In this document: piece by piece, positions 16,867-39,319 of the stretch
Numbering within the stretch: the first letter of the stretch is position 1
How the letters are laid out: every line of letters starts with the position of its first letter
DNA from: a virus
Strand: one strand, 5' to 3'
DNA: 64,000 bases
IMG/VR virus record: IMGVR_UViG_3300047548_001236
Span: 186,001-250,000 of that record
Notes under the pieces: generated by a model
Database searches by the model: none
What the model saw: only the letters and a program-made list of their open reading frames with translations
Told to the model about the DNA's origin: nothing
Position numbers and translations under genes: made by a program

Positions 16867-16867
16867 A

Positions 16868-17041: not shown

Positions 17042-17045
17042 CACA

Positions 17046-18075: not shown

Positions 18076-18076
18076 C

Positions 18077-19201
18077 TTAACCCTCCATCCAAGCCATCAT
18101 TGCGTCATACTTAGGCCCGTTGTTCACCGACTCCTTGACCTTCTTAAGAACAAGAGGACGAAGCTCCTTACCATCAAGAGCTGAGAAAATGAACGACGCG
18201 TCTTCTTTGTTATTGAGGTTGGGGATGAAGTTGATAGCAACATCCTTCTTTACACCACCGTGCAGAACCTTAGCCAGAGTCACCAGACCCTCCAGACGGC
18301 CCAGCACATTTTCCAGAGCAGCATCGAAACGCTTCTCATACGTACGGACAATCTGCAGATCGGTCGCATCCAACAGAGGCAAAACATCATCCAACTGTTC
18401 GTTGACGATGATATCTGCAATGTTGCGATCGGTGCGGATCAGGTCCTTGGTCTTGTGAATACGAACATACCAGTCGTTTTTGATTTTGATCATGTGACCG
18501 TTCACAAAACGAATAATGTCGCCTTCACGGCCCTGCTGTTCACGAGCACGAGCGATGTATTCAGACAGGTCTCCCTTTACTGAACCGTACTGAGGAACAA
18601 TCTCAAAACGATTGGTAAACGGCATGAAGTAGTTGCCCGAAACGTTGTTACGAGCGCCGAGAAGAACCAGACGAGCTTCGGCATAATCGATCACGATCTT
18701 GTTGGTAGGCGAAATATACTCGAAGATCGGCGTAATTTCGGATTCCATCACTTCTTCAAGCCAATCATATTGATCAGGTGAAAGCAACTTTTCAGCTTCC
18801 ACAGCAATGTCGGTCACACCCATCTTCGTGGCCAGGCGAACGATACCGTTCACAAGAACAGGACGGATCATCGAACCATCCATCTTCTCCATGATAACAT
18901 GAGGCATCGACATGTCGAGCAAACGCATCTGCGTCTCTTCACGCTCATTGACGTTGAAGAACTTGTGGAAAGGGCGGGACATGATCTTGCCCTTGGTATC
19001 AAAGATGATGCCACGACATTCCCGACGAATGCGACCAGTCAGGTCATCCACGCCCGTCATATCAAAAGTGTCGGCCATGGCAACTACATAATTGATCACC
19101 GTACCAAACTCACGTTCGGCAACGATGAATTCGGACCGTCCATCAATGTGAGGGAGGACATCATCAATCGTACGAATCTCGGGAAACGTGTAGTGCATCA
19201 T
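18077..19201 (-). CDS. rnlA: T4 RnlA-type RNA ligase 1
   Basis: 374 residues, same length as T4 RNA ligase 1 (374). The N-terminal RECRGIIFD...SRPFHKFFNVNE and motif I EKMDGSM with Lys106 match the Rnl1 family; motif III (EYI-P), and motifs IV (EGDIIRF) and V (MIKIKNDWY) follow. In T4 this enzyme reseals tRNAs cut by host anticodon nucleases. Here it may do the same with the P-loop kinase at 58713 as a possible end-healing partner. Start ATG 19201 or 19198. Confidence 0.9.
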   Translation of the reverse strand: MMHYTFPEIRTIDDVLPHIDGRSEFIVAEREFGTVINYVVAMADTFDMTGVDDLTGRIRRECRGIIFDTKGKIMSRPFHKFFNVNEREETQMRLLDMSMPHVIMEKMDGSMIRPVLVNGIVRLATKMGVTDIAVEAEKLLSPDQYDWLEEVMESEITPIFEYISPTNKIVIDYAEARLVLLGARNNVSGNYFMPFTNRFEIVPQYGSVKGDLSEYIARAREQQGREGDIIRFVNGHMIKIKNDWYVRIHKTKDLIRTDRNIADIIVNEQLDDVLPLLDATDLQIVRTYEKRFDAALENVLGRLEGLVTLAKVLHGGVKKDVAINFIPNLNNKEDASFIFSALDGKELRPLVLKKVKESVNNGPKYDAMMAWMEG

Positions 19202-22657: not shown

Positions 22658-22938
22658 GATTTACCCTGTTGATTGATAAAGTCTTCTAGCACTGGCCTGA
22701 TCACCCTCCGCATGATTTCAGCAGCGGTCTCATCCATTTCATCACCTCGAATATCTGAATACCAGTGGTATCGAGGATTCCCGTTCTTATCCTTTTCCAG
22801 GATAGGGATTCCTAACGACACCGAATCGTTAACATCAAATTTGAGATAATCGTCGATGGTTGTGACCTCATCTATCACAGCTTTTAGTGAAATATCAACA
22901 GCTCTTTCGAGCTGTTCTTTCGTGAGGCCGCTCATCAA
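22654..22938 (-). CDS. Hypothetical protein
   Basis: 94 residues, acidic, helical ends with a central beta segment (GIPILEKDKNGNPRYHWYSD). ATGA overlaps with both the ClpB-like gene upstream and the membrane protein downstream, so the three are translated as a coupled set. Confidence 0.6.
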   Translation of the reverse strand: MMSGLTKEQLERAVDISLKAVIDEVTTIDDYLKFDVNDSVSLGIPILEKDKNGNPRYHWYSDIRGDEMDETAAEIMRRVIRPVLEDFINQQGKS

Positions 22939-25088
22939 GCGGCCTCACTCTTACGATTGGTAAACTGTGTGTCAAACGCCTTGGTTTCTTTGTTGTAAAC
23001 AAGTTCGAGAACAGTCCCTTGGATATCGTTTTCGAGGATCATATTGACAATCAGCGGTTCGATGTTTGCAACAACATACCCCTGCAGACCACGAGCACCG
23101 TGACGAGGCTGATAGTGATCAGCACAGAATGCTTTGATGCATTCGTCTGAGTAGACAATCTCCACACCACTTTGTTTGTATGCCGACTTCAAGCCGTTCA
23201 GCTCACGCTTGACAATCTTTTCGATCGAATCCAGCCCAAGTCGATCAAAACATACGATGTTCTGCCGACCAGCGAAGCGGTTGAGGAATTCTGGACGATA
23301 GACGCTATCCAGCTCCACGTTAGCAAGACGCTCAGCCTCTTCTGGAGAAAGAGTCTCGTCGAGGAAGAACGTTTGACCGATATTGGTCGTCATGATCACC
23401 ATCGACTCCGAGAAGTTGACCGTGCGACCGTGGTTATCGGTCAGGCGACCATCCGACAGAATCTGCAGGAACAGGTCGAACACAGCAGGGTCGGCTTTCT
23501 CAATTTCATCAAACAGAATGATGCGGTGAGGGTTCTGACGCATAGCATTGGTCAGGATACCACCACGTTCGCTACCTTCATAACCAGCAGGAGCACCAAT
23601 CAGCTTTGCGACAGAGTGCTTTTCCATGTATTCCGACATGTCGAAGCGAGTCAGAGCAGATTCATCGTCCTTGAGAGCATGAGCCAATGCTTTACAGACT
23701 TCCGTCTTACCAGTACCAGAAGGGCCCATGATCAGGAACGCTGCTTGAGGCTTGCCACCATTACGACGGCCAATACGTGCGACTTTGATCGCGTTGGCAA
23801 TCTTGTGAATCACTTCCTCCTGACCAAACACACGAGCGTTCAGCAGAGCTTCTAGGTTGCGAAGTTTCACTTTCTCATCCTCATTCAGCTTGGAAACAGG
23901 AATGCCCGACAGACGGCTAAACTCAGCAAGCACTTTTTCTTTCGTCAGAGCCAGTTGAGAGTTGATCTGCTCAGTCAACATATCAAACTCGGCACGGTTC
24001 TCGTTGATCACAAGTTCGTACTGACGAATCTGATTGCGGAGCTCGCGGACTGCAGGAGATTCAAAGCCACCCGAAGCTGCAACGCTCGCAAACATCTGGA
24101 TGCGACGAGAGTTTGCATCGGCTTCAACGACATCCTTTGCAGGAGGATTCTCAGCTTCCTCTTTCTTGATAGCAGCAATTTGCTCCTCAAGATCGATGAT
24201 AGCCACCTCACCATCACGCTGCAGTTGGAATAGCTCTTTGATGCGAGCTTGCGTCTTTGCATACTCCTGATCAAGAGCAATGATACGAGGATCATCTTCC
24301 TTGACGCCAGATGCGAGAAGATACGTCACTTGTGGATGTCGCTTGTGTGCATCAAGACGGTACGTTGCAAGAGCACGGTCAAGCAGGTTGCCAGAACGTT
24401 CAGGCTGAGCGCGTGACAAGCTGGCGTCACGTGAACGATACTTGTTTGTCAACTCGATTGCGGTCAGAACTGCATCATCTTCAATACGGATGTCGTGGTG
24501 TTTTGTCAGACCAAGAGCATTCGAACGAACAATGTCAATCAGATCCTGACCAAATGGCTCGTTCAGATCAATGATCGTATAGCATTGCTTCATGTCCGAG
24601 TGAGCAGCAAGAATCATGTCCAAATCAGGATCACGAGCTTCGAGGATCACTTGCGTGTGACCAGCCTTGACGGAAGCATTGAGCGAGTTGATGAAGTGAC
24701 TGCAGCCGTTGTTGCGTGCAGCCTCGATGAAGTCCCGAGTGTCTTCGATGATCAGAATAGAATCAGGAGTGCGCTTGAGGATCGTCAGTACCCCATTGAA
24801 CCCCTTGTTGATCTCTTCGTGATTGCCCGAAGCAAACAGCTCATCAACTTTCAGCCAGAACAGTCGTTTAGAGATGATATCGAACGGAACGTTAGGATCG
24901 TTCTTAAGAGCCTGGAGACCCATCACAAGTGCCGAAGCGCCTACACCACCAGGACCGACCAGAATGACTGATGCGGCTTTATTCCGCATCAGTACAGAAG
25001 TCAGACGCTTCATATCGTCAGCACGCCCGACCAGTTTGAAGTCGGGGTACTGTTTCAGAAGCTCATTACCAGTAATCAGATACTGCAT
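22935..25088 (-). CDS. ClpB/ClpA-like AAA+ protein with degenerate first ATPase domain
   Basis: 717 residues. The second AAA+ domain is intact: Walker A MGPSGTGKT (about 452-460), FDEIEKADPAVFDLFLQILSDGR with Walker B, the TTNIG sensor region, and the D2-small domain with the GARGL arginine. The first domain is altered: Walker A reads VGPGGVGASA (44-53), lacking the Lys, and the Walker B position reads ILIIEDTRDF. A coiled-coil middle region (about 270-390) replaces the ClpB M domain, and the usual N domain is missing. Probably an unfoldase or remodelling machine with one working ring. Confidence 0.8.
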   Translation of the reverse strand: MQYLITGNELLKQYPDFKLVGRADDMKRLTSVLMRNKAASVILVGPGGVGASALVMGLQALKNDPNVPFDIISKRLFWLKVDELFASGNHEEINKGFNGVLTILKRTPDSILIIEDTRDFIEAARNNGCSHFINSLNASVKAGHTQVILEARDPDLDMILAAHSDMKQCYTIIDLNEPFGQDLIDIVRSNALGLTKHHDIRIEDDAVLTAIELTNKYRSRDASLSRAQPERSGNLLDRALATYRLDAHKRHPQVTYLLASGVKEDDPRIIALDQEYAKTQARIKELFQLQRDGEVAIIDLEEQIAAIKKEEAENPPAKDVVEADANSRRIQMFASVAASGGFESPAVRELRNQIRQYELVINENRAEFDMLTEQINSQLALTKEKVLAEFSRLSGIPVSKLNEDEKVKLRNLEALLNARVFGQEEVIHKIANAIKVARIGRRNGGKPQAAFLIMGPSGTGKTEVCKALAHALKDDESALTRFDMSEYMEKHSVAKLIGAPAGYEGSERGGILTNAMRQNPHRIILFDEIEKADPAVFDLFLQILSDGRLTDNHGRTVNFSESMVIMTTNIGQTFFLDETLSPEEAERLANVELDSVYRPEFLNRFAGRQNIVCFDRLGLDSIEKIVKRELNGLKSAYKQSGVEIVYSDECIKAFCADHYQPRHGARGLQGYVVANIEPLIVNMILENDIQGTVLELVYNKETKAFDTQFTNRKSEAA

Positions 25089-25103
25089 TTATGTTTCCTT
25101 TGA

Positions 25104-26768
25104 TCAGAAATTGAACGGACGCTTGACTTTGGCAACGGGTTCGTCATTAGCTGCCTTTTGATCAGCCCCCATGACAATATCCGCCACCACAGCCTTGGAT
25201 TCAAGGACAGTCTGTGCGACTTCCTCAGCAGTTTTCTGCATCACTTCCAGATTCTCACGCATGGTTTGAATACCATTACGAGTGAACTCGGTAGCAACCT
25301 TGTTGACTTCGCCATACTGAGCCAGGCTCTCGATAGCCCGAACCAGATCGTTGTTGCGCTCTTGGTAGCCCATAGCAATCCGCATCGACTCCTTCTGAGC
25401 GATAACGTCAGTGTTGTTGGCCATCGCGTTCAGAGTTTCAGCTGTCATGGCATTCGACTCGGCGATAGCAGCAGCGCCGACCGCTTGGATGACAGTCGAC
25501 AGACGATCAGCAACACCAGCAACACCACGCGCGTGCATGTCACGAGCCATCTGGATCTGTTGCTGGTTCGCGTCCCGCATGTTCTTGATGCGGATCGAAG
25601 CCGAGGTCAGATCAGCGACAGTTGCAGTCGTATCGACTGCCGAAACTTCCAGCATCTGGATGTGTTCGTCAAGATCACGCTGCTTGGTTTCACGAGTGAG
25701 CTTCTGCACCATATTCTCGTTTTCACCAGGAACGAGAATCTGCTCACGCATCTTTTTGTTCTCGTTTTCAGCGCCTTTGACACCTTCACCAAGAATTGCA
25801 TAGATAAAGCTCATCTGGCCGTTCGCATCTTCCAGATTCTTCGTCTGATCGCCCATGTGAGCAAGGTGACCACGAATCGTCTCGATCTTTTCCTTGGAGG
25901 TCTGAACGAAGTTGACCGCCGACTTGATCAGATTCTCAGACCGCTTCTGGTGATCTTCGGTCGCCAGGTTCAGCATGTCTTTCAGCTTCGCCTTTGCTTC
26001 TTGGTTGGTGATCTTCGATTCAACCGTGGTCTGGTTAGCACGAGCAGCTTCCGCCTCTGCCGCAATCTTTTGCAGCTCAGCAGCAGCATTTTCCATTGCG
26101 ACTTTGTTGCGAGCAATCTTCTCGACCGATTCGGCTTTGATGCCACCGAAGCCAAAGAAGCCCTTGTTCTGCTCTTCGACACGGTTCTGAGCTTTCAGTT
26201 CATCGATGCGAGATTGCACCTTGGTGATCTGCTCATCCAGTTCACGCTGACGCTGAGCAATCGCTTCCTGACGCTTCTCTTCATCTTTGATTTCACGGAA
26301 AGCATCCAGAGTCTGATTCTCGGCACGCAGAACATGCAAAGCATCGATGATATCCGTCAGAGGCTTCATGTCGTTTTCAAAATCGATCAGAGCTGTATTG
26401 ATGTCCTCGAACACTTGCTTAAGCGTTGCGAAATTTTTGGTGTCGGACATCTTGATGATCTGCGTCGCCATCGCTTCACGCTCAGCTTGCAGATACTCTT
26501 TAAACAGATCGAACGCTTTGACACGCTCACGATTCTCTTCACGAGTACCAGCAAACGTCAGCAGCTTCGTAACGGCTGCTTGCTTGGCTTCCGGCGACAG
26601 AGCTTCATCAAAAATCGTCTTGAAGAAGGGATTGGTTTCAATATTCGCAAAGCGAGAATCCTTCGCCTTGGTTTCCTCCTTCTGCTTCGCAGTCGGAGTT
26701 GCACGACCCCGAACGGCCAGGATTTCTTCCAGCTGCTGCTGACGGGAAAGTTGTGCAGATGCGCTCAT
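25104..26768 (-). CDS. Large coiled-coil protein (weak TelA-like character)
   Basis: 554 residues, almost entirely helical, with long heptad-like stretches (about 150-290 and 420-540). It is one gene upstream of the ClpB-like protein with a 15-base gap and shares its promoter, so it could be its adaptor or substrate. The C-terminal region (MGYQERNNDLVRAIESL...) loosely recalls TelA/KlaA tellurite-resistance proteins, but I would not assign that family. Confidence 0.65.
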   Translation of the reverse strand: MSASAQLSRQQQLEEILAVRGRATPTAKQKEETKAKDSRFANIETNPFFKTIFDEALSPEAKQAAVTKLLTFAGTREENRERVKAFDLFKEYLQAEREAMATQIIKMSDTKNFATLKQVFEDINTALIDFENDMKPLTDIIDALHVLRAENQTLDAFREIKDEEKRQEAIAQRQRELDEQITKVQSRIDELKAQNRVEEQNKGFFGFGGIKAESVEKIARNKVAMENAAAELQKIAAEAEAARANQTTVESKITNQEAKAKLKDMLNLATEDHQKRSENLIKSAVNFVQTSKEKIETIRGHLAHMGDQTKNLEDANGQMSFIYAILGEGVKGAENENKKMREQILVPGENENMVQKLTRETKQRDLDEHIQMLEVSAVDTTATVADLTSASIRIKNMRDANQQQIQMARDMHARGVAGVADRLSTVIQAVGAAAIAESNAMTAETLNAMANNTDVIAQKESMRIAMGYQERNNDLVRAIESLAQYGEVNKVATEFTRNGIQTMRENLEVMQKTAEEVAQTVLESKAVVADIVMGADQKAANDEPVAKVKRPFNF

Positions 26769-26812
26769 ATTATAGATCTCCTCTTGAGATGAATGTTGTC
26801 ATGTAGGTAGTG

Positions 26813-26841
26813 ATATTATTGTATTTCGTTCAGGAATGCAA
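26813..26841 (-). promoter_or_regulatory. Host-like sigma70 promoter
   Basis: Minus strand TTGCAT-N17-TAATAT, 45 bases before the start of the coiled-coil gene. It would drive the coiled-coil / ClpB-like operon. Confidence 0.55.
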
Positions 26842-26850
26842 CTGCTATTT

Positions 26851-27195
26851 TTACAAAAGTGTGGACAGCATGATACCAATGATGCCAACCAACAGAAGAG
26901 CCATAGAGGTAGACCTCGACTGATGGTACTTTGTACTCAAATTCAAGTACTGTTTATGAAGAGCCCGGTACCGTTCATGGGTCAAGTTTGCCTGAGCCCG
27001 AAGAAGTGAAATTTCTTGATGGGCTTGTTTGATTGTATCGTGGTATTCCTTCATGTTTTCGTGGATAGTAGAGCTTGTATCAGCCGTTTTGGAAGGCGTA
27101 CCTCCACGCTTGCGTGCCATGCGCAAGCAAGCGATCGCTTCATCTTCGGATGACGTACTCATTGCCTTAGCTAGCAAGTCGTTCACAGTGGCCAT
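26851..27195 (-). CDS. Tail-anchored coiled-coil protein with DUF2786-like start
   Basis: 114 residues. The first 30 (VNDLLAKAMSTSSEDEAIACLRMARKRGG) look like the first helices of DUF2786, the middle is a coiled coil, and the last 18 residues (MALLLVGIIGIMLSTLL) form a C-terminal membrane anchor. The gene is divergent from the rightward LRV operon. Confidence 0.6.
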   Translation of the reverse strand: MATVNDLLAKAMSTSSEDEAIACLRMARKRGGTPSKTADTSSTIHENMKEYHDTIKQAHQEISLLRAQANLTHERYRALHKQYLNLSTKYHQSRSTSMALLLVGIIGIMLSTLL

Positions 27196-27265
27196 TAACG
27201 GATCCTTTAATTTTTCGGATTGGTATCGCGATCATACATCGCGGTTTGCAAGGTTTCAACTGTTT

Positions 27266-27273
27266 TATAAATA
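27266..27273 (+). promoter_or_regulatory. T4-type late promoter (TATAAATA) of the LRV operon
   Basis: Perfect plus-strand TATAAATA, 31 bases before the ATG at 27304, in the only rightward-facing intergenic region of the operon. I see no good sigma70 promoter in the same gap. This predicts late expression of the whole seven-gene operon. Confidence 0.65.
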
Positions 27274-27303
27274 GGTCATGTGGAATTTTGTTAGGGCCTT
27301 AAC

Positions 27304-28944
27304 ATGTTGAAATTTAAGCAGTATATCGTAGAATATCTGACGGACGAGCAAAGAGCTCGCTATAAGCAGTACAAGATGACACCGAAAGCTCGTCGTGACA
27401 CCGACCATTTTTTTGGTAAGGGTGTCGATGAGGTTCACGGTGAGATTGCCAACGACGACAAGTCAGAGATCCACACACGTCTGGAGAATCACCTTGGACA
27501 GCCTGTGTCACATGAAGACTACAAGCGCGGGGCAATTAAAGACAAGTATGGGCGTGATGTTAAGATCGGACGTTTGATCAAAGACAGCTCGCTGAGAAAT
27601 CAGTTTGACCAGGATCCGTCGAGGAAGCTGGAACGGGTAATTCACAAGACACGAACTGTTCGAGGAACAGAAGTAGCTGGGCAAACAAATCCTGTCCCTG
27701 ACGCTAACCACCCGACAGGTCACTCGTGGCATGATAGTAGCTGTAAGAACCTAGAGAGTGGTATCAACCGTCATTATCTACCCAAAGAAATCCAGCATGG
27801 AACGGTAGTGCATTTTGTCCACGATAGTAACGGACAAGAGATCTACAGGGCTACACTTCAACCCCACCATAACGAAAGTGGACGAGTGGCTTATAGTGTC
27901 GATGCAGAATATGGTATCAAACACCCACATTTTACAGCTGACGCTCACCGTGTTGCAACTGCTCTTAGTGGACAGTCTCGTGGTAACATTGTGCATGAGA
28001 AGCATGATGATGTTTACAATGACAATGGTGAGGAAACTATGATTCATCCAAAAGCCAGCGACGCGCAGTTGATGAAGCATCTTAAGACAGGTAATTGGTC
28101 TACAAAGTATGCCGTGCTCAAGCACCCAAATCTAAATCACAAGCATTTGATGCAGGCTGTTAAAGATGAGGACGAAGATAACGTGATGACCGCGTTGTCA
28201 CATCCAAATATAACGCACGAACACATTGAAAAGGCTATGAACAGACCTGATGCAAGCGACGAGTTGATAGGCATTGCCGCCAGCAACCCTAAAGCGACGT
28301 TAGAGCAACTGCAAAAAGGGCTTTCGTACCGTAGTGCTAGTGTTAGATATGAGGCAATGAAAAGTCCTAACGTGACGCCGGATATGTTGTCGAAGCTACA
28401 AGATGATAAGGATCGCCGAGTACGTTCTGCGGTTATAAAGCATCCTAATGCAGACGTATCTCATTTGAACCGCGCTATCAATGACCACGACTGGATGGTG
28501 CGAGCTGCCGTCGCCCGTAACAGCAAAGCACAGCCTCATCATCTTGATCAACTTGTGAACGACGAAGACAGCGATGTGGTCCACGCAGCGTCAAACAACC
28601 GTAACCTTTCCGCGGATCATATCACAAAAATCATGAAAAGCCCATTTGCTGACGCAAAGAAAAACGTGTTGTATCACAATAACTTCAATCCATCCCATCT
28701 CGGTATTGCAATACACGATAAGGATCCTGAGATCAGTATGTTGGCAGCTACCAATCACAGAGATATGTTGACACCAGAACATCTTGAGCATCTCGCTGAC
28801 CACAATAGCTGGCGTGTTAGACATACTGTCGCCAAGCACGAGCTAACGCCTATTAAAACACTCAAAAAACTAACAAAAGACGAAGACCCTGATGTTGTCC
28901 TTGCTGCTGGACAAAACCTGAAAAACAGTGAGAACCGTAAATGA
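27304..28944 (+). CDS. Capsid-targeted LRV-repeat protein 1
   Basis: 546 residues. The N-terminal decamer MLKFKQYIVE matches the T4 capsid-targeting pattern (aromatic at 4 and 7, Ile/Leu at 8, Glu at 10). A domain shared with four neighbours follows (about 11-235; HFFGKGVDEVHGE, GRDVKIGRLIKD, TVRGTEVAGQTNPVP, GHSWHDSSCKN, NGQEIYRATL, EYGIKHP). Residues 250-546 are about twelve 24-residue repeats of the type HPN-T-EHI-KA---D--VR--A, as in leucine-rich repeat variant (LRV) proteins. Predicted to be packed in the head and ejected; target unknown. Confidence 0.8.
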   Translation: MLKFKQYIVEYLTDEQRARYKQYKMTPKARRDTDHFFGKGVDEVHGEIANDDKSEIHTRLENHLGQPVSHEDYKRGAIKDKYGRDVKIGRLIKDSSLRNQFDQDPSRKLERVIHKTRTVRGTEVAGQTNPVPDANHPTGHSWHDSSCKNLESGINRHYLPKEIQHGTVVHFVHDSNGQEIYRATLQPHHNESGRVAYSVDAEYGIKHPHFTADAHRVATALSGQSRGNIVHEKHDDVYNDNGEETMIHPKASDAQLMKHLKTGNWSTKYAVLKHPNLNHKHLMQAVKDEDEDNVMTALSHPNITHEHIEKAMNRPDASDELIGIAASNPKATLEQLQKGLSYRSASVRYEAMKSPNVTPDMLSKLQDDKDRRVRSAVIKHPNADVSHLNRAINDHDWMVRAAVARNSKAQPHHLDQLVNDEDSDVVHAASNNRNLSADHITKIMKSPFADAKKNVLYHNNFNPSHLGIAIHDKDPEISMLAATNHRDMLTPEHLEHLADHNSWRVRHTVAKHELTPIKTLKKLTKDEDPDVVLAAGQNLKNSENRK

Positions 28945-30686
28945 AAAGATTCAAGTCGTTTCTATTGGAATATCTGACCGATAAACAGCGTGAGCGCTAT
29001 CAGCATATTGAAATGACACCTAAAGCACGTGCCGACTCCGATCATTTCTTTGGACAAGGAAATGATGAGGTGCATGGTAGTTTACATTCGATGACCGACA
29101 AATCCGAGATCCACAGGAAGATTGAAAATCACCTCGGACAAGAAATATCACACGAAGACTATAGAGCAGGTCTTGCTAGAGACCATCTAGGTAGACAGAC
29201 GCGTATCGGACGATTGATAAAAGACGATTCGTTGAGGAACGAGTTTGCGAAGGATCCTACAAGAGAAGGATCGCGTAGCGGTCAATCGCAATATACAACA
29301 AGAACAGTTCGTGGAGTGGAAGTTGCAGGACAGACAAACTCTGTACCTGATGCACAACATCCAAAAGGCCATTCGTGGGGTAACATAAGCTGTAAGAACA
29401 ACGAGACGGGAATAAACAAACACTATCTCGAAGATGAAATCAAGCACGGTACCGTTACTCACTTTGTTAAGGATCACAACGGCCAGGAGATCTATCGTGC
29501 AACACTACAACCTCATCATAACGATGAGGGTCATGTTGCGTATGCAATTGATTCGGAATATGGTATCAAGCACCCATCATTCACCGAAGACGCAAAAAGA
29601 GTAGCAGCCAAACTGTCTAATGCTGATCATACGAATGGTCTGTTTAGAAAGCACGGTAAAGTTTACCATGATAGTGAAGATAGTTATATGCTGCATCCTA
29701 ATGTATCATCAGAACAGCTTCACAAGTATATAGCGGCTCCGTCAGACGAATATGACGATCGCAAGCTACTCGTGAAAAGATTGGCAATAATGCACCCCAA
29801 CTCTGACAGCACTCATATCCAACGAGTGCTGGATCAAAAGGATACCCATCCTGTACTTTTGAACCGAATTGCAAGCCACCCTAAAATAACAGATGAACAA
29901 ATCAGCCGTCTATTGGACAATCCGCGCAACGGTGTTCGAAGAACTGTTGCTTCTAATCCTAACATTAAAGATCATCACATACGCAAGGCGCTGGCAGATA
30001 CGGATAACACCGTTCGTGCGAACATCATGTCAAATCCATCGACACCTACCCATCATATAATTAATGGAACAAAAGACCGCAGCTCGTTGGTTAGAGCTAC
30101 TGCATATGCAAATTCGAAGCTTCCGAAAGAACACCTTATCAAAGGTTTGGACGACGAAAGTGATCAGGTAAAAGCTACTGTTGTGGGAAATCGTTCGATA
30201 TCAGGTCAACATTTGACAGATGCGTTAAGAAATCCTAGCGAGCATGTAAGAGCTGCTGTATTTGACAATCCAAATGCAACTCCAGCTCATATAGAGCTTG
30301 CAAAGAAAGACCCTCATTGGCAAGTACAAATGAGAGCAGCCTCTCATAAAAATGCCACGAGCGACCAGCTACACGATTTCATTGATCACGGTTTCAGAGA
30401 AACCCATGTTAGTGTAGCAAAGAACCCTAATGCAAATATCAGCCATCTTAATAAACTGTATGACGTTGGTAACACGGATACAAAATTTGATGTGCTCGCT
30501 CACCCCAATGTCGATTCCAACCTTATTCACAAAGTAGTGAGCAACGACGCAGAAACGGACGATATTAAATATCATGCTCTAAAGCATCCAAATGCAACAG
30601 TTGAAAACCTTAAATGGGCTTCGCGTAATTCAGCGAGTCCGTTCCTCAGAGACGCTGCCCGTAAAATACTTGGAGCTAGAACATGA
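28941..30686 (+). CDS. Capsid-targeted LRV-repeat protein 2
   Basis: 581 residues, paralogue of the gene at 27304. Decamer MKRFKSFLLE, then the shared domain to about residue 237 (DHFFGQGNDEVHGS, TRIGRLIKDDSLRNEF, GVEVAGQTNSVP, NGQEIYRATLQPHHN, SEYGIKHP), then about thirteen LRV-type repeats (NPNIKDHHIRKALADTD, NPSTPTHHI and similar). The ATG overlaps the stop of protein 1 by 4 bases (ATGA). Paralogues differ mostly in the repeats, which suggests different binding targets. Confidence 0.8.
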   Translation: MKRFKSFLLEYLTDKQRERYQHIEMTPKARADSDHFFGQGNDEVHGSLHSMTDKSEIHRKIENHLGQEISHEDYRAGLARDHLGRQTRIGRLIKDDSLRNEFAKDPTREGSRSGQSQYTTRTVRGVEVAGQTNSVPDAQHPKGHSWGNISCKNNETGINKHYLEDEIKHGTVTHFVKDHNGQEIYRATLQPHHNDEGHVAYAIDSEYGIKHPSFTEDAKRVAAKLSNADHTNGLFRKHGKVYHDSEDSYMLHPNVSSEQLHKYIAAPSDEYDDRKLLVKRLAIMHPNSDSTHIQRVLDQKDTHPVLLNRIASHPKITDEQISRLLDNPRNGVRRTVASNPNIKDHHIRKALADTDNTVRANIMSNPSTPTHHIINGTKDRSSLVRATAYANSKLPKEHLIKGLDDESDQVKATVVGNRSISGQHLTDALRNPSEHVRAAVFDNPNATPAHIELAKKDPHWQVQMRAASHKNATSDQLHDFIDHGFRETHVSVAKNPNANISHLNKLYDVGNTDTKFDVLAHPNVDSNLIHKVVSNDAETDDIKYHALKHPNATVENLKWASRNSASPFLRDAARKILGART

Positions 30687-32110
30687 AACCATTCAAATCT
30701 TTCCTTCTTGAATACTTGACAGATGCACAACGTCAGCAGTATAGTCAGTATAAAATGACTGATAAAGCTCGTGCAGACACAGATCACTTTTTTGGTGTTG
30801 GCAACGATAAAGTTACTGGTGCCTTGGGTCATACTACCGATAAATCCGAGATCCATCGAAAAATTGAAAAACACCTTGGTGCTGAAATATCTCACGATGA
30901 CTACCGTGCAGGCATTACGAAAGACAAATACGGTCGTGATGTTCGTATTGGCAGGGTGATAAAAGACGATAAGCTGAAAGCAGAATACGCAAAAGACCCA
31001 ACAAGGGAAGGAGCAAAGGTTGGCTCGCAATTCACAACCTCTACCGTGAGAGGGATTGAAGTTGCCGGACAGACTAATCCTGAACCAAACGCTGAGCATC
31101 CGAAAGGACACTCGTGGAGAGATCTTAGCTGTAAGAACGTCACCTCTGGAATTCAACGTCATATATTAGCCAACGAAATCGAACGTGGGACTGTTGTCCA
31201 CTTTGTCCACGATCGTAACGGACAAGAAATTTACAGGGCTACATTGCACCCTCACCACAACCAAGAGGGCCATGTGGCTTATGCTGTCGATTCGGAATAT
31301 GGTATCAAGCACCCAGCTTTTATGAAAAGTGCTCGCGACACTGCAGAGAAACTATCAGGTGAGTTAAAGGGAAGCCCTGTTTTTGAGAAAGACCGCGAGG
31401 TTTATGATGATAGTGGCGTAAGCCATATGATCCACCCGTCTGTTAGCAGTGAAGGGTTGACAAATCATCTAAAGTCGTCAAAGTTTACTGAACGTTATGC
31501 TGTATTGAGACACAAAAACGTTACGCCTGAGCACATTGAGATGGCGGTTAACGATTCAAATAGACACGTGAGACGTGAAGTAGCAAAATCACTTTTGTTG
31601 AAGCCTGAACATATCACAAAGATTATGGATAACCCAAATGAGAATAGTAGAGTGAAGATGGAGGCTGTCCAGAATCCTAATGCAACTGCTGAACATATAT
31701 CAAAAGCATTAGACTCTGATGATCATGATGTCCGTCTTTATGCCATGAGAAATCCAAACGTTAATGCAGATCACATATCAAAAGCGTTGGACGTGGACCA
31801 ACCACATCATATTCGTCAGATGGCGTTACAACACCGAAAAGTCACGCCTTCACATATAGCAAAGGTTCTCAGCCATAACCCAAGAGTACTAGATAGAAAC
31901 ACTCTTGCTATACAAGAGCAGGCAGCCGCACATCCAAATGCATCGAAAGAAAATATTGATCAAGCGTTACAACACCGCGAGCATACCGTGAGAGAGTTAG
32001 CGATAAATAACAGAAATGCAACGGACGAGCAAATCAGCCGGGGGTTGGACGATCCTCACCCGATGGTCAGAATATCAGCTAGATATGCAAAGAAAGCAAG
32101 AGAACAATGA
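30683..32110 (+). CDS. Capsid-targeted LRV-repeat protein 3
   Basis: 475 residues, the shortest paralogue. Decamer MKPFKSFLLE; shared domain to about 235 (DHFFGVGNDKVTGA, GRDVRIGRVIKDDKLKAEY, GIEVAGQTNPEP, HSWRDLSCKN, NGQEIYRATLHPHHN); about nine LRV-type repeats follow (KNVTPEHIEMAVNDSNRHVRREVA and similar). ATGA overlaps at both ends. Confidence 0.8.
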   Translation: MKPFKSFLLEYLTDAQRQQYSQYKMTDKARADTDHFFGVGNDKVTGALGHTTDKSEIHRKIEKHLGAEISHDDYRAGITKDKYGRDVRIGRVIKDDKLKAEYAKDPTREGAKVGSQFTTSTVRGIEVAGQTNPEPNAEHPKGHSWRDLSCKNVTSGIQRHILANEIERGTVVHFVHDRNGQEIYRATLHPHHNQEGHVAYAVDSEYGIKHPAFMKSARDTAEKLSGELKGSPVFEKDREVYDDSGVSHMIHPSVSSEGLTNHLKSSKFTERYAVLRHKNVTPEHIEMAVNDSNRHVRREVAKSLLLKPEHITKIMDNPNENSRVKMEAVQNPNATAEHISKALDSDDHDVRLYAMRNPNVNADHISKALDVDQPHHIRQMALQHRKVTPSHIAKVLSHNPRVLDRNTLAIQEQAAAHPNASKENIDQALQHREHTVRELAINNRNATDEQISRGLDDPHPMVRISARYAKKAREQ

Positions 32111-34311
32111 TTAGATTCAAAACATTCATTAACGAAGACGTTTTACTCGAGAACCGTATCGAGTTCCTCAAGCAACAAAACCCAACAATCGACACGACTC
32201 ACGACACCTTGGCTAAGCACAAGGACGCTGGGGCAATCATTGACCACTTTGCTAAGAAGGCGGACCCAACGCCAACCAAGGCTCATACTCAGTGGATCGT
32301 CAATCAATATAAGAAGCAGACAATCCGTCAGGAAGATGCCCCTCAAATCAAGTCAACGCTGAATGATTTTGAAACAGTGAAGCCTCGCCTAGAAAAGAAG
32401 GACCTCAACCAATACAAGGATATTGGTGAGTTGAGAGACGCTGTCGCTACTCAGAAGAGCCAAGCAGAGAAGGTCGTGAAGGCAAAGAAAACAACCGCTG
32501 CAAACAAGTCTGCTGATCTTGAAAAGATGTACGATGAAGACGGTGTGACTGGATATAAAATCCCCAATAAAGAGTCGAGCATCAGGAACTACGGTCCTGC
32601 TGGCGAGGTGAAACAGACACACTGGTGCACCGCTGCCAACTCAGGCAACAACATGTTCAACCACTATAAAGGTGGCAAGTATACCATGCACTTCCCTAAT
32701 GGAGAAGTGCTGCAATTCCACCACCAATCCAATCAAATCATGGACAAATACGATCGTCGCGTTGAAGAAGGCGATCCACGTTTTGCACCGTATGAGCACC
32801 ACATCACCAAATTCATCCACCAAACCAAGCCCCTCGAGAGCGATTCAAAGATCGATAGGTTCCACCACTATGAACCATACGAGATAGATGATGCGATTGC
32901 TGGATACAAGAAGAGGTTGAGTGATAGCAACAATGATCCTACTGCCAGTGGGGTCAGCTACCACCACACAACAAAAAATCTGACAGACATTAGCGAAAAG
33001 GCTAAGCTAAGTGACAAGCAATTCGATGCGATCCATTCTCTTCCTATTGGTAAAGATTACCTTAACCGACCAGAGGGCGTTCCACTCAGCCTGAGCAAAA
33101 ACAAAAAGCTGACACATGAGCAGGTGGGTAAGTTGCTAGGCGCCCATGACGAGAAGGTGCTTGATCATCACGAAGAGCAGCTTGCACAGAACCCTGTTGT
33201 GAAGGACGAACATATTGACGCATTGCTCAAATCACCGAGACTCAGCAAAGAAGCATTCCACTCGCTGGCCAACAATCCTAACTTGAAACAACATCACATC
33301 GACGCTCTTATCAAAGATCCAGAGACGCATGATAAGCTGGGTAGCAACCACGCGATCACTTTGACCAAGGATCATCAGGATCAGATAATAGATAGTGGCA
33401 AGTGGAAGGAAGGGTTTGCACATCGCAGTGACCTGCACCCTGATACCGTCGAGCATTTGCTGGGAAGTGGGTATGGAGCACACATCCATACGCACCTGGT
33501 CAACAACCCACATGTTGAGATGGATGATCGCCAGCTTCGTAGTTTGCATGCGCAGCACAATAGAGGCGAGTCTGCAATTTCTGGAGCCATCTTCGATTCT
33601 CCAAAGACGTCTCCAGAGACGAGAGAGCATGTGTTCAATACTCATATGGATCATCTTGAAAGAAGCGGTGGAGGTTCTAGCCCTGCTCTTGATACGATGA
33701 TCCGTTCCAAGCATTTCACAAAAGACCACCTCGATCGAGTGCTGGATGTTGCTGACAAAACAGATAAACAACCAGGTGCAACGAACACAATGAGAATATA
33801 CGCTTCGAGATATCTCAAGGCATCACCTGCTCAGCTTGATCGTCAGGTCAACGCTAGCAAGCAAGGCACCGCTCCAGTAGGTTATCTGCTTGACAATAAG
33901 AACCTGAAACCCGAACACTTGAAAACGTTGTTCAACGCTGCAGCTTCTAGCAAAACGGAGTATGAAAAGGAAAAGGTGATGGAGCATCCATCCATCAACG
34001 GGGATGTTCTCCATCACGTGTTCGATAGTGGACATAGCTGGGATAGAACACGTGTTCTACACCACCCAAAAGTTCAAATGTCTCACTTCCAAAAAGCTAT
34101 GGATGTGGGTCAATCCTTGCATGGCGCGATATCGTCTTCACCGAGTGCTCCGCCTTCGACTCTGAGTAAGCTGGCTGACTCGCCGTTCTCGTTCGTGCGT
34201 CAAAACATTGCGAGTCACAAGAACACACCTCAAGAAACCCTTGCTAACCTAGCAAACGATTCAGCCGAAGAGGTGTCGTCCATTGCTAAGAAGCGTTTGA
34301 AGTTGAAATAA
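32107..34311 (+). CDS. Capsid-targeted repeat protein 4, with distinct WCTA-type domain
   Basis: 734 residues. The decamer MIRFKTFINE fits the same capsid-targeting pattern, but the next 250 residues differ from the paralogues: a Lys-rich helical part, then THWCTAANSGNNMFNHYKGGKY and LQFHHQSNQIMDKYDRR, a pattern I have seen in other phage repeat proteins of unknown function. Residues about 290-734 are degenerate LRV-like repeats. The base composition and repeat spelling are more divergent than in the paralogues. It may be an older member or a different module on the same delivery signal. Confidence 0.75.
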   Translation: MIRFKTFINEDVLLENRIEFLKQQNPTIDTTHDTLAKHKDAGAIIDHFAKKADPTPTKAHTQWIVNQYKKQTIRQEDAPQIKSTLNDFETVKPRLEKKDLNQYKDIGELRDAVATQKSQAEKVVKAKKTTAANKSADLEKMYDEDGVTGYKIPNKESSIRNYGPAGEVKQTHWCTAANSGNNMFNHYKGGKYTMHFPNGEVLQFHHQSNQIMDKYDRRVEEGDPRFAPYEHHITKFIHQTKPLESDSKIDRFHHYEPYEIDDAIAGYKKRLSDSNNDPTASGVSYHHTTKNLTDISEKAKLSDKQFDAIHSLPIGKDYLNRPEGVPLSLSKNKKLTHEQVGKLLGAHDEKVLDHHEEQLAQNPVVKDEHIDALLKSPRLSKEAFHSLANNPNLKQHHIDALIKDPETHDKLGSNHAITLTKDHQDQIIDSGKWKEGFAHRSDLHPDTVEHLLGSGYGAHIHTHLVNNPHVEMDDRQLRSLHAQHNRGESAISGAIFDSPKTSPETREHVFNTHMDHLERSGGGSSPALDTMIRSKHFTKDHLDRVLDVADKTDKQPGATNTMRIYASRYLKASPAQLDRQVNASKQGTAPVGYLLDNKNLKPEHLKTLFNAAASSKTEYEKEKVMEHPSINGDVLHHVFDSGHSWDRTRVLHHPKVQMSHFQKAMDVGQSLHGAISSSPSAPPSTLSKLADSPFSFVRQNIASHKNTPQETLANLANDSAEEVSSIAKKRLKLK

Positions 34312-34322
34312 GAGAGCCAAAC

Positions 34323-35297
34323 ATGGAATACGAACTCACATCTCAGAAGCTCGACAACAACACCCATCTAGTGAAGAACAAGCACACGAACGAGCCAGTC
34401 GCCATACTGAAAAGAACTGGCGGCTACAAGCGAAATGAAGTCAAGTCGGAATGGCACCCCGACTACAAGCTGTTGCACCCTGAGGTTCACGAAAACCTTC
34501 TGACGAGAAACTTCCACAAGCCACATGACAGCGTTTCTGATGCTGTTAGCAACATCACATACATATCGCAAGATCACGCATTTGGTAAAAACTCGCGAAT
34601 CGATCCTATCAAAACACGGTATGCCGGCGATTTTGATACCAAGACACCTTATGGCCAAGATACGAAAGGGCATAAGTGGCATGTGTTGGACGATGACGGG
34701 AAACACGTCGCTTCTATAACGTCATTCCACGGACCAAACCAAATTCACCGCGAGTCTCCTGTAAGTGTCGGTTGGGTCAAATCGTTCAACGATAGCGTTC
34801 CCGATAGTGTCAAAGAAGCGGCAAATTCAAAGCACGGAGGTCAGACTCTTTATGCGACGATGAACCGTATTCGTTACATGATGGACAACAAGGGTAAAGA
34901 GCCTCGCTTTGTCGGTACGCATGTCGACCCTGCGTCTAAGACTAAGATGTTCAAAACGAATCTACCACCAGAAGAAGCGTCGAAGGCGTATGAAGAGCAT
35001 CTAGCAAAGAGGCTAGGAAACGGCTACACGTTTACACGTCACGGACCCACGCTGTTTACAGCAGAGAAGCCAGCGCAAGGAAGGTACGATAGAACTTACC
35101 AACACCACGTTATAGCTATGCCTGGTCAGCTTCATCATATCGAGTCTTCGCTCCATCACCCAGACTACGATACAACGACCAACAAGAACAAGGAAGTTGT
35201 TGAGTCGTATATGCTGAATCCTAATAAGAGACCTTACCCGTTGACGCTCGAAGAGCATCTCAAGGCACAACGTTTCCTCCTTAAAAAGGCTAGATAA
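34323..35297 (+). CDS. Unknown protein inside the LRV operon, without capsid-targeting start
   Basis: 324 residues. Unlike its six neighbours it starts MEYELTSQKLDNN, with no targeting decamer, and has no LRV repeats. Residues about 110-130 (GHKWHVLDDDGKHVASI) recall the GHSW...NGQEIYRATL segment of the paralogues, so it may share the same small beta domain. Rich in His, Lys and Tyr. It could be a chaperone, a companion enzyme or a virion protein. It ends directly before the next gene with no gap. Confidence 0.7.
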   Translation: MEYELTSQKLDNNTHLVKNKHTNEPVAILKRTGGYKRNEVKSEWHPDYKLLHPEVHENLLTRNFHKPHDSVSDAVSNITYISQDHAFGKNSRIDPIKTRYAGDFDTKTPYGQDTKGHKWHVLDDDGKHVASITSFHGPNQIHRESPVSVGWVKSFNDSVPDSVKEAANSKHGGQTLYATMNRIRYMMDNKGKEPRFVGTHVDPASKTKMFKTNLPPEEASKAYEEHLAKRLGNGYTFTRHGPTLFTAEKPAQGRYDRTYQHHVIAMPGQLHHIESSLHHPDYDTTTNKNKEVVESYMLNPNKRPYPLTLEEHLKAQRFLLKKAR

Positions 35298-37391
35298 ATG
35301 CGCAGCTTCAAATCGTATCTGATAGAGTATATAACCGACAGCCAACGTGAACGTTACAAAAACGTCCACATGACCGACAAAGCTCGTGCCGATACCGATG
35401 AATTTTTCGGTGTCGGTAACGACAAGGTTCACGGCGAAATCGAACACGGTGAAAAGTCCGAGATACATAAGCAACTCGAGAACCATCTCGGGCGAGAGGT
35501 ATCTCATGAAGAATACAACAAGGGAACCGTGAAAGACAAACACAACCGTGATGTGAAGATCGGACGTTTGATCAAGGACAATGACCTACGTATTCAGTTT
35601 GACAAGGACCCATCTCGTCAGATTGCAAAAGCACCCACTCTGAAAACAACGACCGTTCGCGGTGTTGAGGTTGCAGGGCAGACAAACCCTGTACCCAATG
35701 CTGAACATCCTGAGGGACATTCGTGGAAGGGTTATAGCTGTAAGAACATTGAGTCAGGAATCAATAGGCGTTATCTCGAGCCAGAAATCAAGCACGGGAC
35801 TGTTGTTCACTATGTACATGATCACAACGGCCAAGAAATATATCGAGCAACGCTTCACCCGCACCATAACGAACATGGTGATGTTGCATATGGCTTGGAT
35901 GCTGAGTATGGTATCAAACACCCGAAGTTCACAGCTGATGCCCAGCGCGTCGCGAAGGAGCTCTCTGGTGAATATAAGCCAGGAACGTTCTGGAAGCACC
36001 CGGAAGTATACAACGACAACGGCAAGAGTAATATGTTCCACCCTGGCATATCCGAAGGGCATATTTCAGATATCTTAACACACGGTTCAACCAGTGACAA
36101 ACATGATATCATGATGCACCCTGCTTTCACAAGCGATCACGTGTCCAAGGTTCTGAAATACGAACCAAATGGAGCACTGAGAGGACACGCTTTATTGAGA
36201 AGCGATCTTGTGACACCAGAACACATCACGACAGCTTTGAACGATCCCGACGACCACGTTAAGCGTATGGCTCTACACAACGGGTCCAAAATTACAGCGG
36301 ATCATGTTAAACGAGCTCTTGAGCCTGACATGCCAGCGGACATTCGCCGTCATATGGCTAAAAACCGCCATGCAACACCTGAATTGCTTTCACAAGTTAT
36401 CAAGCACGATCCGAACTCGGAAGTTGTGCAAACGGCTGTAATGAACAAGAATGCTACCCCAGAACATATAACTCAGGCTTTACAACATCCTGACGTTTAC
36501 GTGAGACAAGCGGCATTGACGCGTTCTGACCTCGTCAATGACAGCCATCTGCACACCGCTGTCCGTGACTCCAGTCCTCGTATCACAACACATGCAGCTT
36601 TTCATCACAAAGCTAAACCAGAACATCTCGACTACATTATGGATCATGGACATAACAACGCACTCGAAGCTATGTTCCACCGTGAAAGCAACGCAACGTC
36701 TGAACACATTGGCAAAGCTCTTCGTAGCACCGATCCAAGATTCACGACAACTATAAAAGAGTTCGCTGCATCACATCCCAACGCATCTTCGGAAAATATC
36801 ATGGATGCGTTGAAACTAAACAACCCACGCATCACCTATGATGTGATCGATAATCACGATAATCTCAGCAAAGAGCATATGGATCACATAGTGAAGCATA
36901 CGCCTGATGATGACGATATGATATCCGCAATATCTCGTCACCCATCGTTGCGTGCCGAGCACATTACGCATCTTCTCGATAGACCGGGCATATCAAAGAA
37001 CATATTCGCAAGTCGTATATACAAACAGCTAGCCAACCACCGGAATCTCGCTCCGGAACATATGGAGAGACTGGCCAAGCACGACAACTGGAATGTTCGA
37101 AATATCATTGCCAATCGTCACGATGCTCCTGCTCATGTTCTCTCACATATCGTCAGACACGATCCAGAAGAAGCAAACAGATATGATGCTATCATGAACG
37201 ACAACACTCATCCGGACGATCTGGAGCATGCTGTCAAACATGATGAAAGCGTATTCAATAAGGAAGCTGCACTGCGCAACTTCAATACGCCGGTACATGC
37301 AATCAAGCACGTTTTGGATACATATAAGACAGGCGATCTGAGAAAACAAGCCATTAGCTCTCTGCGTCAAAGAGGAATACAAGCCGAATGA
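35298..37391 (+). CDS. Capsid-targeted LRV-repeat protein 5
   Basis: 697 residues, the longest of the five close paralogues. Decamer MRSFKSYLIE; shared domain to about 235 (EFFGVGNDKVHGE, NRDVKIGRLIKDNDLRIQF, GVEVAGQTNPVP, HSWKGYSCKN, NGQEIYRATLHPHHN); then about eighteen LRV-type repeats (NKNATPEHITQALQHPDVYVRQ and similar). The ATG starts immediately after the stop of the 34323 gene. Confidence 0.8.
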   Translation: MRSFKSYLIEYITDSQRERYKNVHMTDKARADTDEFFGVGNDKVHGEIEHGEKSEIHKQLENHLGREVSHEEYNKGTVKDKHNRDVKIGRLIKDNDLRIQFDKDPSRQIAKAPTLKTTTVRGVEVAGQTNPVPNAEHPEGHSWKGYSCKNIESGINRRYLEPEIKHGTVVHYVHDHNGQEIYRATLHPHHNEHGDVAYGLDAEYGIKHPKFTADAQRVAKELSGEYKPGTFWKHPEVYNDNGKSNMFHPGISEGHISDILTHGSTSDKHDIMMHPAFTSDHVSKVLKYEPNGALRGHALLRSDLVTPEHITTALNDPDDHVKRMALHNGSKITADHVKRALEPDMPADIRRHMAKNRHATPELLSQVIKHDPNSEVVQTAVMNKNATPEHITQALQHPDVYVRQAALTRSDLVNDSHLHTAVRDSSPRITTHAAFHHKAKPEHLDYIMDHGHNNALEAMFHRESNATSEHIGKALRSTDPRFTTTIKEFAASHPNASSENIMDALKLNNPRITYDVIDNHDNLSKEHMDHIVKHTPDDDDMISAISRHPSLRAEHITHLLDRPGISKNIFASRIYKQLANHRNLAPEHMERLAKHDNWNVRNIIANRHDAPAHVLSHIVRHDPEEANRYDAIMNDNTHPDDLEHAVKHDESVFNKEAALRNFNTPVHAIKHVLDTYKTGDLRKQAISSLRQRGIQAE

Positions 37392-39319
37392 TAAAGTTCA
37401 AATCGTTTTTGTTGGAATATCTAACAGACAAGCAAAGGGAACGGTATAAAGACGTTCGCATGACCGATAAGGCTCGCGCTGACACGGACCATTTCTTTGG
37501 AGCTGGGAATGACAAGATACACGGCGAGATCGAGCATGACGACAAGTCAGAAATTCATCACCAGCTCGAAGCCCATCTAGGCCAGCCTATTTCTCACGAG
37601 GATTACAAAAAAGGAACGACTCTCGATCGTCACGGTCGAGAAGTGAAGATTGGCCGTCTGATTAAGGATAACGACCTTCGCAATCAGTTTGACCAAGATC
37701 CATCACGTAAGATAGCCAAAACGTCAACGCTCAAAACCACAACGGTACGTGGTACGGAAGTAGCTGGCCAGACAAATCCTGAGCCAAACGCAGAGCATCC
37801 AAACGGCCACTCGTGGCACGACATAAGCTGTAAAAACGTTGAGAATGGCATAAACAAGCATTATCTTGATAAAGAGATCCAACACGGCACCGTTGTCCAT
37901 TTTGTTCACGACCACAACGGGCAGGAAATCTACCGAGCAACATTACACCCACATCACAACGATGAGGGTCATACCATCTACTCCGTCGATGCGGAATATG
38001 GTATAAAACACCCCAACTTCACACAGGATGCTCATCGTGTCGCGAGCCAGCTTTCTGGCGAGTATAAAAGGGGAACATTTGTCAAAAACCGCAATGTGTA
38101 TAACGACAATGGAATGAGGTATGCTCTTCACCCAGCAGCACCTGGAGCTGAGGTTGATAAAGAAACCCACGAAGAACTCGCAAAACCGTACGAAAAGCAG
38201 AGTGCTGAGAAGCTGAGAGTGCTGCTAACACATCCAAATATTTCAGGCGAAACGTTGTCACACGTTCTACACACTACTCAGGAGACGCCTGCAGACGTAT
38301 GGGGTCTTGCAGCTAAACACCCAAATCTGAAAGGTGAACACCTAGAAAAAGCGTTGAACAGCACACATAGTCACACAGCGACTTCGGCTCTAAAGAATCC
38401 TAATGTTACAGCCGAACATCTGCATAAAGTGTTGGACGCTCCAGATACCAATCGTAACTGGGCTCAAAAACGAGCTGTGTTCGAATCCCCTGCTGTCAAT
38501 TCGAGCCACATTGAGAAAGCTCTCAAGACCGATCCTAGCGATGATTTGTTTCATGCTGCAGCACAACATCCTAAGACAACATCTGCGCAGTTGAACGTTG
38601 TCGCTCAGCATTACCCATACATTGCTCTCCAACACAGAAACGTCAAGCCATCCAACATCGATAAATGGTTGGATAGTGACGATGGTCGTCTACGTCAAGG
38701 AGCTGCTCTGCATAAAGCGGCTACTGATGCTAACCTCACAAAAGCTCTGTCACAGGATCCTGAAACGCGATCAGGCACTGTTTGGGCTGCTCTAGGCAAC
38801 CGTAACATAAAACCACATCACATCGAACCGTTTCTGAATCACAGTAACAGAGAACTCCGCATTGCGGCTGCTGAAAGTCCTGGAATCTCTCCTGAGCAGA
38901 TTGATAAAGTTCTTGACCACGAGAAAGATCGGCATGTTTTAAGTACATTGATCCACAGAACCAATACCAAGGTTACAGATGCACATCTACGCAAGGTTCT
39001 GAACGGTGATTATCCGATGAGAGTTAAAGAAAAGGTAGCAGAGCATCCGAACATATCTTCTGATACGATCAACAAGGCGTTGGATTTTGCTCATCAAAAC
39101 GATAATGGGAAGATGGCGCTCGACGCTCTTAGTCACGACCACGTAACCTCAGACAACCTACACCACGCGTTGAAACTCGACAATCCTCGCATCGAGAGCG
39201 ACGTCTTGTGGCATAATCAGGCTACACCAGAACACTGGGAATACGTTGCCAAGCACAGTAAAAGCCCAGGTAACGTTGCTGTTGCCGAGCGGTTCCTGGC
39301 AAACGGTAGAAGAGGATAA
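37388..39319 (+). CDS. Capsid-targeted LRV-repeat protein 6
   Basis: 643 residues. Decamer MIKFKSFLLE; shared domain to about 240 (DHFFGAGNDKIHGE, GREVKIGRLIKDNDLRNQF, GTEVAGQTNPEP, HSWHDISCKN, NGQEIYRATLHPHHN); then about sixteen LRV-type repeats. It is closest to protein 5 in the first 150 residues, pointing to recent tandem duplication. Last gene of the operon; a terminator follows within 10 bases. ATGA overlap with protein 5. Confidence 0.8.
   Translation: MIKFKSFLLEYLTDKQRERYKDVRMTDKARADTDHFFGAGNDKIHGEIEHDDKSEIHHQLEAHLGQPISHEDYKKGTTLDRHGREVKIGRLIKDNDLRNQFDQDPSRKIAKTSTLKTTTVRGTEVAGQTNPEPNAEHPNGHSWHDISCKNVENGINKHYLDKEIQHGTVVHFVHDHNGQEIYRATLHPHHNDEGHTIYSVDAEYGIKHPNFTQDAHRVASQLSGEYKRGTFVKNRNVYNDNGMRYALHPAAPGAEVDKETHEELAKPYEKQSAEKLRVLLTHPNISGETLSHVLHTTQETPADVWGLAAKHPNLKGEHLEKALNSTHSHTATSALKNPNVTAEHLHKVLDAPDTNRNWAQKRAVFESPAVNSSHIEKALKTDPSDDLFHAAAQHPKTTSAQLNVVAQHYPYIALQHRNVKPSNIDKWLDSDDGRLRQGAALHKAATDANLTKALSQDPETRSGTVWAALGNRNIKPHHIEPFLNHSNRELRIAAAESPGISPEQIDKVLDHEKDRHVLSTLIHRTNTKVTDAHLRKVLNGDYPMRVKEKVAEHPNISSDTINKALDFAHQNDNGKMALDALSHDHVTSDNLHHALKLDNPRIESDVLWHNQATPEHWEYVAKHSKSPGNVAVAERFLANGRRG

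Follow-up and report, generated by a model that had tools for sequence, protein, structure and literature searches.

A late operon of tagged alpha-solenoid proteins that are probably packed into the head of a T4-superfamily jumbo phage

A 64,000-nucleotide stretch of a metagenomic virus genome (hereinafter, the window) contains, at positions 27304-39319, seven plus-strand genes, six of which encode proteins that start with a decamer resembling the leaders of T4 internal head proteins. We consider it likely that these are internal head proteins of a jumbo phage of the T4 superfamily that are packed into the prohead, trimmed and ejected, and plausible that they bind targets in the host.

The phage and its head genes

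The window corresponds to positions 186001-250000 of a virus record (G000) that is 282,855 bp long; the phage is known here from this metagenomic record, that is, from sequence alone, and stretches of the genome were read directly, with the remainder covered by pattern search. The genome encodes a gp23 capsid protein (E 1.8e-146), a gp22-type scaffold (E 2.3e-61) and, at G000:172909-173583, a gp21-type prohead protease of the S77 family (E 3.8e-38), the enzyme that the first-pass annotation had proposed to look for. Given these genes and the 66% identity of the capsid protein to those of Sinorhizobium phages phiN3 and phiM12 and of Methylophilales phages, the phage evidently belongs among the jumbo phages of the T4 superfamily. 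The tagged proteins are thus encoded together with a cognate S77 protease and a gp22-type core, as is characteristic of T4-type internal proteins that carry a capsid-targeting sequence (CTS).

The operon

The operon consists of the following elements (window coordinates).

27266..27273, plus strand: late promoter box of the T4 type, TATAAATA; the first ATG follows 30 bp downstream
27304..28944, plus strand: LRV/HEAT protein 1, 546 aa, leader MLKFKQYIVE; N-domain at about 11-250, alpha-solenoid at about 253-545
27304..27333, plus strand: residues 1-10 of protein 1, a leader of the capsid-targeting type with a predicted cleavage after Glu10
28941..30686, plus strand: LRV/HEAT protein 2, 581 aa, leader MKRFKSFLLE
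30683..32110, plus strand: LRV/HEAT protein 3, 475 aa, leader MKPFKSFLLE
32107..34311, plus strand: protein 4, 734 aa, leader MIRFKTFINE-DVLLE; different N-domain (WCTA motif), C-terminal LRV-type array
34323..35297, plus strand: seventh gene, 324 aa, without leader, family match or repeat
35298..37391, plus strand: LRV/HEAT protein 5, 697 aa, leader MRSFKSYLIE; degenerate repeats
37388..39319, plus strand: LRV/HEAT protein 6, 643 aa, leader MIKFKSFLLE; degenerate repeats

The first-pass annotation had described a late operon of six ATGA-coupled genes. The positions of the six open reading frames and their M-x-x-F-K-x-[FY]-[IL]-x-E starts are as it gave them, and so is the late promoter; the seventh gene, however, has to be added, and the coupling by 4-bp ATGA overlaps holds for four of the six junctions but not for the other two, with gaps of 11 and 0 bp. 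The TATAAATA box occurs 5 times in the window against 0.81 expected, and the identical box precedes the genes for gp21, gp22 and a head-core protein elsewhere in the genome, which points to late expression together with the head genes. A further paralogue lies outside the window, on the minus strand (G000:44755-46635, GTG start). Just upstream of the operon, the minus-strand region 22935-26768 of the window encodes a ClpB-type AAA+ ATPase (PF07724, PF10431), adjoined by the gene for a 554-aa protein without a Pfam match, whose sequence resembles TelA-type proteins.

The leader as a probable capsid-targeting sequence

The N-terminal ten residues of IPIII are enough for packing in T4, mutagenesis of the leader assigned residues 4 and 7 to targeting and residues 8 and 10 to processing, and gp21 cleaves after L/I-X-E (PMC9026906). 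The correspondence to these four positions that was noticed at the outset holds in a larger sample: among 29 leaders, 20 of them found via body homology alone and some of the others picked by pattern, residue 4 is Phe and residue 10 is Glu in all, residue 7 is aromatic in 28 and residue 8 is Leu or Ile, with positions 2, 3, 6 and 9 variable. Aromatic residues 4 and 7 in a short N-terminal leader, followed by [LI]-x-E at positions 8-10, are the hallmark of a T4-type CTS. At the DNA level, a strict degenerate motif matches the complete genome (283 kb) 9 times and a looser version 13 times, and neither has any match in the reversed control; matches at window positions 3788-3817 and 8913-8942 were left uncounted on account of uncertain starts. 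A similar scan of isolate T4-like phages, which gave 0-2 clear tags each with similar counts in several of the reversed controls, was not used as evidence, and the candidate leader MIRLFKTFIKE in L031, L032 and L039 was dropped as lying inside a longer open reading frame.

The junction between leader and body is conserved as well. Homologue leaders that differ in length or sequence (FLKEETLLE, FLREYVEIKE, EELLKE, TLKE and TLKQLNE, as well as SLLE inside a fusion) still finish in [LI]xE directly before YLT[DP], and most members of the protein 4 family keep LLE before [ND][RK], so that protein 4 may be cut after Glu15. The fusion (L033:1112-6580) is an 1822-aa protein in which the LRV-family domain follows SLLE behind a long region with DACW...VPNCVP-type motifs, which we presume to be associated with T4-like core-region genes. 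Inside the bodies, in turn, the cleavage motif is avoided: [LI]xE is found 0 times in the mature N-domains against 9.5 expected in six proteins and 0 times against 22.1 in fourteen, and in the repeats it reaches 0.31-0.32 of the expectation, compared with 1.09 in ordinary window genes and 2.27 in gp22. This depletion is supportive only, given that it was counted on related paralogues, which are not independent, and that some control motifs also deviate. Scaffold proteins destined for degradation (gp22, gp67 and gp68) are expected to have many internal gp21 sites; the operon proteins show the opposite pattern.

Furthermore, the same tag stands before at least five unrelated bodies in this one phage, as expected of a T4-type CTS. 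They include the following.

G000:18758-19117: tagged GNAT acetyltransferase (PF13508)
G000:42757-43164, minus strand: 135-aa protein tagged MKTFKQFITE, no family match
G000:66407-66784: small protein tagged MLRFREFIFE
G000:14437-15726 (L024:4437-5726), minus strand: triple-module GNAT-like protein, leader MLSFSQFLKE
Gene between portal and protease in G000 (gp67/68 position): protein tagged MKKFRQIISE

In the triple-module protein, the inner junctions repeat the cleavage site (SINE/AGD, SINE/SEE), and the first of them resembles the tag-body junction of single-module relatives (LAE-AGD, LKE-AGD); this suggests a polyprotein from which the prohead protease might release individual modules for delivery. 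Nearby on the minus strand, G000:17499-17951 and 18066-18524 encode a pair of related proteins whose tags are off-register (MLTFHQFVVME-S and MLSFKTFMLAE-A), adjoining an untagged SIR2-family gene at 16794-17483 (PF02146, E 3.8e-46). The 135-aa protein contains a stretch, YHESPGHVADSFRKHGI...YGIFATIG, that we would tentatively liken to ADP-ribosyltransferase-like folds.

Taken together, the fixed [LI]xE junction, the unrelated tagged bodies, the motif counts and the internal-site depletion argue for a removable tag, and the protease and other head partners, the T4-matching positions and a homologue recorded in virions (see below) argue for capsid targeting as its role. That the decamer is a functional capsid-targeting tag we regard as very probable.

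Homologues and a virion record

One virion record comes from Pseudomonas phage PA5oct, which encodes an S77 protease and whose EST35_0205 protein (482 aa, start MKLFEVFTLYE-DK), a homologue of protein 4, is annotated 'structural protein, ESI-MS/MS'. The entry says 'structural protein' only, without virion location or cleavage state, the identity to protein 4 is 31% over the N-terminal 226 residues only, and this single virion record in the family concerns a homologue of protein 4, not of the five paralogues. Among metagenomic relatives, one homologue adjoins gp23 and another lies between gp15 and the small terminase gene; an S77 gene is present on 6 of 13 relative contigs. Leaderless domain homologues are found in Dickeya phage JA13, Lu11 and Erwinia phage phB78, in which no S77 protease was detected. 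Agrobacterium phage Atu_ph07 departs from this co-occurrence of protease and leader: it has an S77 protease, and its N-domain homologue starts MQYTDLIEALKP, without F4 and F7, an apparent exception that counts against our reading. A protein in L044 joins the two groups: it has a T4-like leader (MKTFFSLMEE), and its body stands midway between the leaderless type and that of the window.

Protein bodies

The N-terminal domain attributed at first sight to five of the six tagged proteins is indeed common to them, with 61-70% identity to the first, and the sixth (protein 4, at 32107) has another N-domain. When the outside paralogue is added to the five, mean pairwise identity is 64% in the N-domain and 24% in the repeats. 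The repeats themselves require a correction: the period, given initially as 24 residues, was measured as 26, clearly in the first three proteins and weakly in the others, and the arrays of 35298, 37388 and 32107 are degenerate. Their assignment to the LRV family stands in part, as 27304 and 32107 alone pass the curated Pfam cut-off for LRV (PF01816) and the other tagged proteins fall below it; the cut-off for HEAT (PF02985) is passed by 27304 and 35298, and 28941, 30683 and 37388 fall below both.

The AlphaFold2 model of protein 1 (mean pLDDT 90.2) consists, in this order, of unfolded residues 1-8 (below 50), an alpha/beta domain and a solenoid that extends to the C-terminus, and in the PDB it matches solenoids of the HEAT, importin and artificial alphaRep types; the model of protein 4 is poorer (mean pLDDT 76.5). 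On the strength of these models, the repeats appear to be 26-residue alpha-solenoid units of the HEAT/LRV kind. Other searches were uninformative: a PDB sequence search with profiles of the N-domain and of protein 4 gave nothing useful, PADLOC gave no match, PHROGs gave no informative match for the operon and a pattern scan of GTDB genomes found no cellular relative of the N-domain. A PHROG 'methyltransferase' match of 35298 falls in the repeats and was not accepted as function.

Tandem copies and hypervariable repeat positions

A 40-kb contig carries 14 full and one partial tandem copy of such genes, found by their bodies and not by the tag, each starting with M[IL]xFKxFL[LI]E-YLTD, and intact as well as broken copies occur on a second contig of that dataset. 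In G002 (L058, approximately 25298-28323 of the contig), decaying tandem LRV genes are seen as partial copies and stop-containing frames beside intact ones, a sign of birth and death of paralogues.

N-domain identity among the copies of the 14-copy phage is 86%, against 64% in the repeat regions. The repeat unit, AL-ND-K-xxx-VR-x-AAA-x-HPNANAEHLHK, is nearly fixed except for positions 5-7 and 10, so that there are 3-4 hypervariable positions per unit (2.7-3.6 bits of entropy, followed by positions 14, 4 and 11). The pN/pS ratio is about 0.95 for the hypervariable codons, compared with 0.25 for the remaining codons of the unit and 0.17 for the N-domain; codon analysis of these positions found no clear positive selection, and the values fit relaxed or diversifying selection, the latter not being proved. 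The units of the window phage are too diverged for a clean profile, with the same positions among the most variable.

Competing explanations

Could the operon proteins be packed without being delivered? As core or filler proteins, they would enter via the leader but serve head assembly, through core size, DNA condensation or an inner-body-like role, and would not be ejected binders. T4 core proteins do use the same route, the gene in the head-core position of this genome has the same leader, and homologues are located in head gene clusters. Yet a digested scaffold is rich in [LI]xE, at 2.27 times the expectation in gp22, and the operon bodies are nearly free of it; moreover, a structural part would hardly be expected to show either a copy number between 1 and at least 14, with decay of copies in G002, or a hypervariable repeat face. 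We regard this explanation as unlikely.

Five of the six proteins are paralogous, so their starts are not independent, and the decamer might be a conserved amphipathic start of the family, with the proteins acting in the infected cell after late expression. This is very improbable in our view: the same start precedes at least five unrelated bodies, indels in the leader preserve the [LI]xE junction, residues 1-8 are unfolded in the AlphaFold2 model, and the leader is absent from the distant homologues in the three phages without a detectable S77 protease. Nor do we give much credence to outer or tail-associated adhesion proteins that would sit on the virion surface or neck and bind the host surface, which we would place near the bottom of the scale of probability. 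Solenoids are able to bind surface ligands, one homologue is encoded between neck and terminase genes and the wording of the PA5oct record is compatible with such a location; however, a protease-trimmed core leader sends proteins inside the T4 head (PMC9026906), and Pfam and PHROG searches gave no signal, fibre or decoration-protein match for the operon proteins.

A proposed course of events

Under the preferred explanation, that of internal head proteins that are packed and ejected, the operon proteins would be made late and enter the scaffolding core via the leader, and the prohead protease would cut after Glu10 (after Glu10 and/or Glu15 in the case of 32107), so that the folded body would stay whole inside the head. 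Packing via the core and trimming after the Glu are strongly indicated by the sequence features described above. The mature bodies would then leave the head with the DNA and enter the next host; that the body is kept and ejected is likely, and we infer it with moderate confidence from the precedents of the T4 internal proteins, of Alt and of IPI, which inhibits the gmrS/gmrD restriction enzyme (PMC3012670). Thus, of the initial suggestion of capsid-packed, ejected proteins, the packing part has gained support from the protease, the junctions, the unrelated bodies and PA5oct, whereas the delivery part derives from the T4 precedent.

The alpha-solenoid arrays are plausible binding surfaces, diversified by duplication and by the hypervariable repeat positions. 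The T4 precedent and these hypervariable surfaces suggest that the solenoids bind host factors, for which we see close to an even chance. It is plausible that the delivered proteins form a mixture of binders, neutralising or redirecting proteins of the host, with defence factors as the likeliest class, and the label 'effector' is plausible to the same extent. In its most specific form, this would be a head-delivered repertoire, with one tag and anchor domain, variable solenoids and an injected library directed against host (defence) proteins that evolves by duplication, repeat exchange and decay; we put this forward tentatively, as somewhat less than an even bet. Should the binding interpretation be true, the family would represent a natural library of delivered binders and a source of new anti-defence factors, as well as a directly testable case of phages that carry ready-made counter-measures. 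The tag rule itself ([LI]xE plus aromatic residues 4 and 7) offers a simple way to compile the delivered proteins of metagenomic phages of the T4 type.

Relation to known systems

The closest counterparts are T4 IPI, IPII and IPIII, late head proteins with diverse bodies behind a conserved N-terminal leader of about 10 residues with aromatic residues 4 and 7, an aliphatic residue 8 and Glu10; the T4 ipII record (X04567.1) annotates a leader at -10 to -1 plus a mature chain. The bodies of T4 internal proteins are small and these proteins are few, unlike the window proteins, which are solenoids of 475-734 aa in expanded paralogue sets. T4 Alt, an ADP-ribosyltransferase, is a large packed protein that gp21 trims and that acts on the host after its delivery (PMC9026906, PMC9958956), but it is an enzyme encoded by a single gene, without a repeat array. 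The inner-body and ejection proteins of phiKZ and SPN3US are also paralogous head proteins of jumbo phages, which the prohead protease cleaves after Glu and which are ejected (PMC5694885, PMC9026906); they differ in the S/A-x-E or A-x-E motif, the mostly long propeptides, the lack of solenoids and a different head lineage, and the operon proteins have [LI]-x-E sites and no PHROG match to phiKZ-type proteins. EST35_0205 of PA5oct shares with protein 4 an N-domain and a leader and is recorded in virions; unlike the window set, it is a single gene with N-terminal homology only.

The packing tag of T4 is known, and it has already been proposed that T4-like phages carry varied proteins by means of it (PMC9026906). 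The literature searched contained no phage LRV or HEAT internal proteins, in line with the first-pass suggestion of an undescribed family, and as far as these searches show, a large, expandable set of tagged solenoids with hypervariable faces has not been described. We classify the family as T4-type CTS-tagged internal proteins, expanded as large hypervariable solenoids.

The jumbo phages Lu11, Dickeya JA13 and Erwinia (Alexandravirus) encode a similar N-domain (VAG...W..SC core) followed by helical repeats, but differ in having neither a T4-type leader nor a detectable S77 protease. Three proteins of Lu11, encoded by genes 0206-0208 (L027:4851-10369), start with MKIQLA[VT]A or MRIQLAVAA, perhaps a different leader shared within a phage in which no S77 protease was detected.
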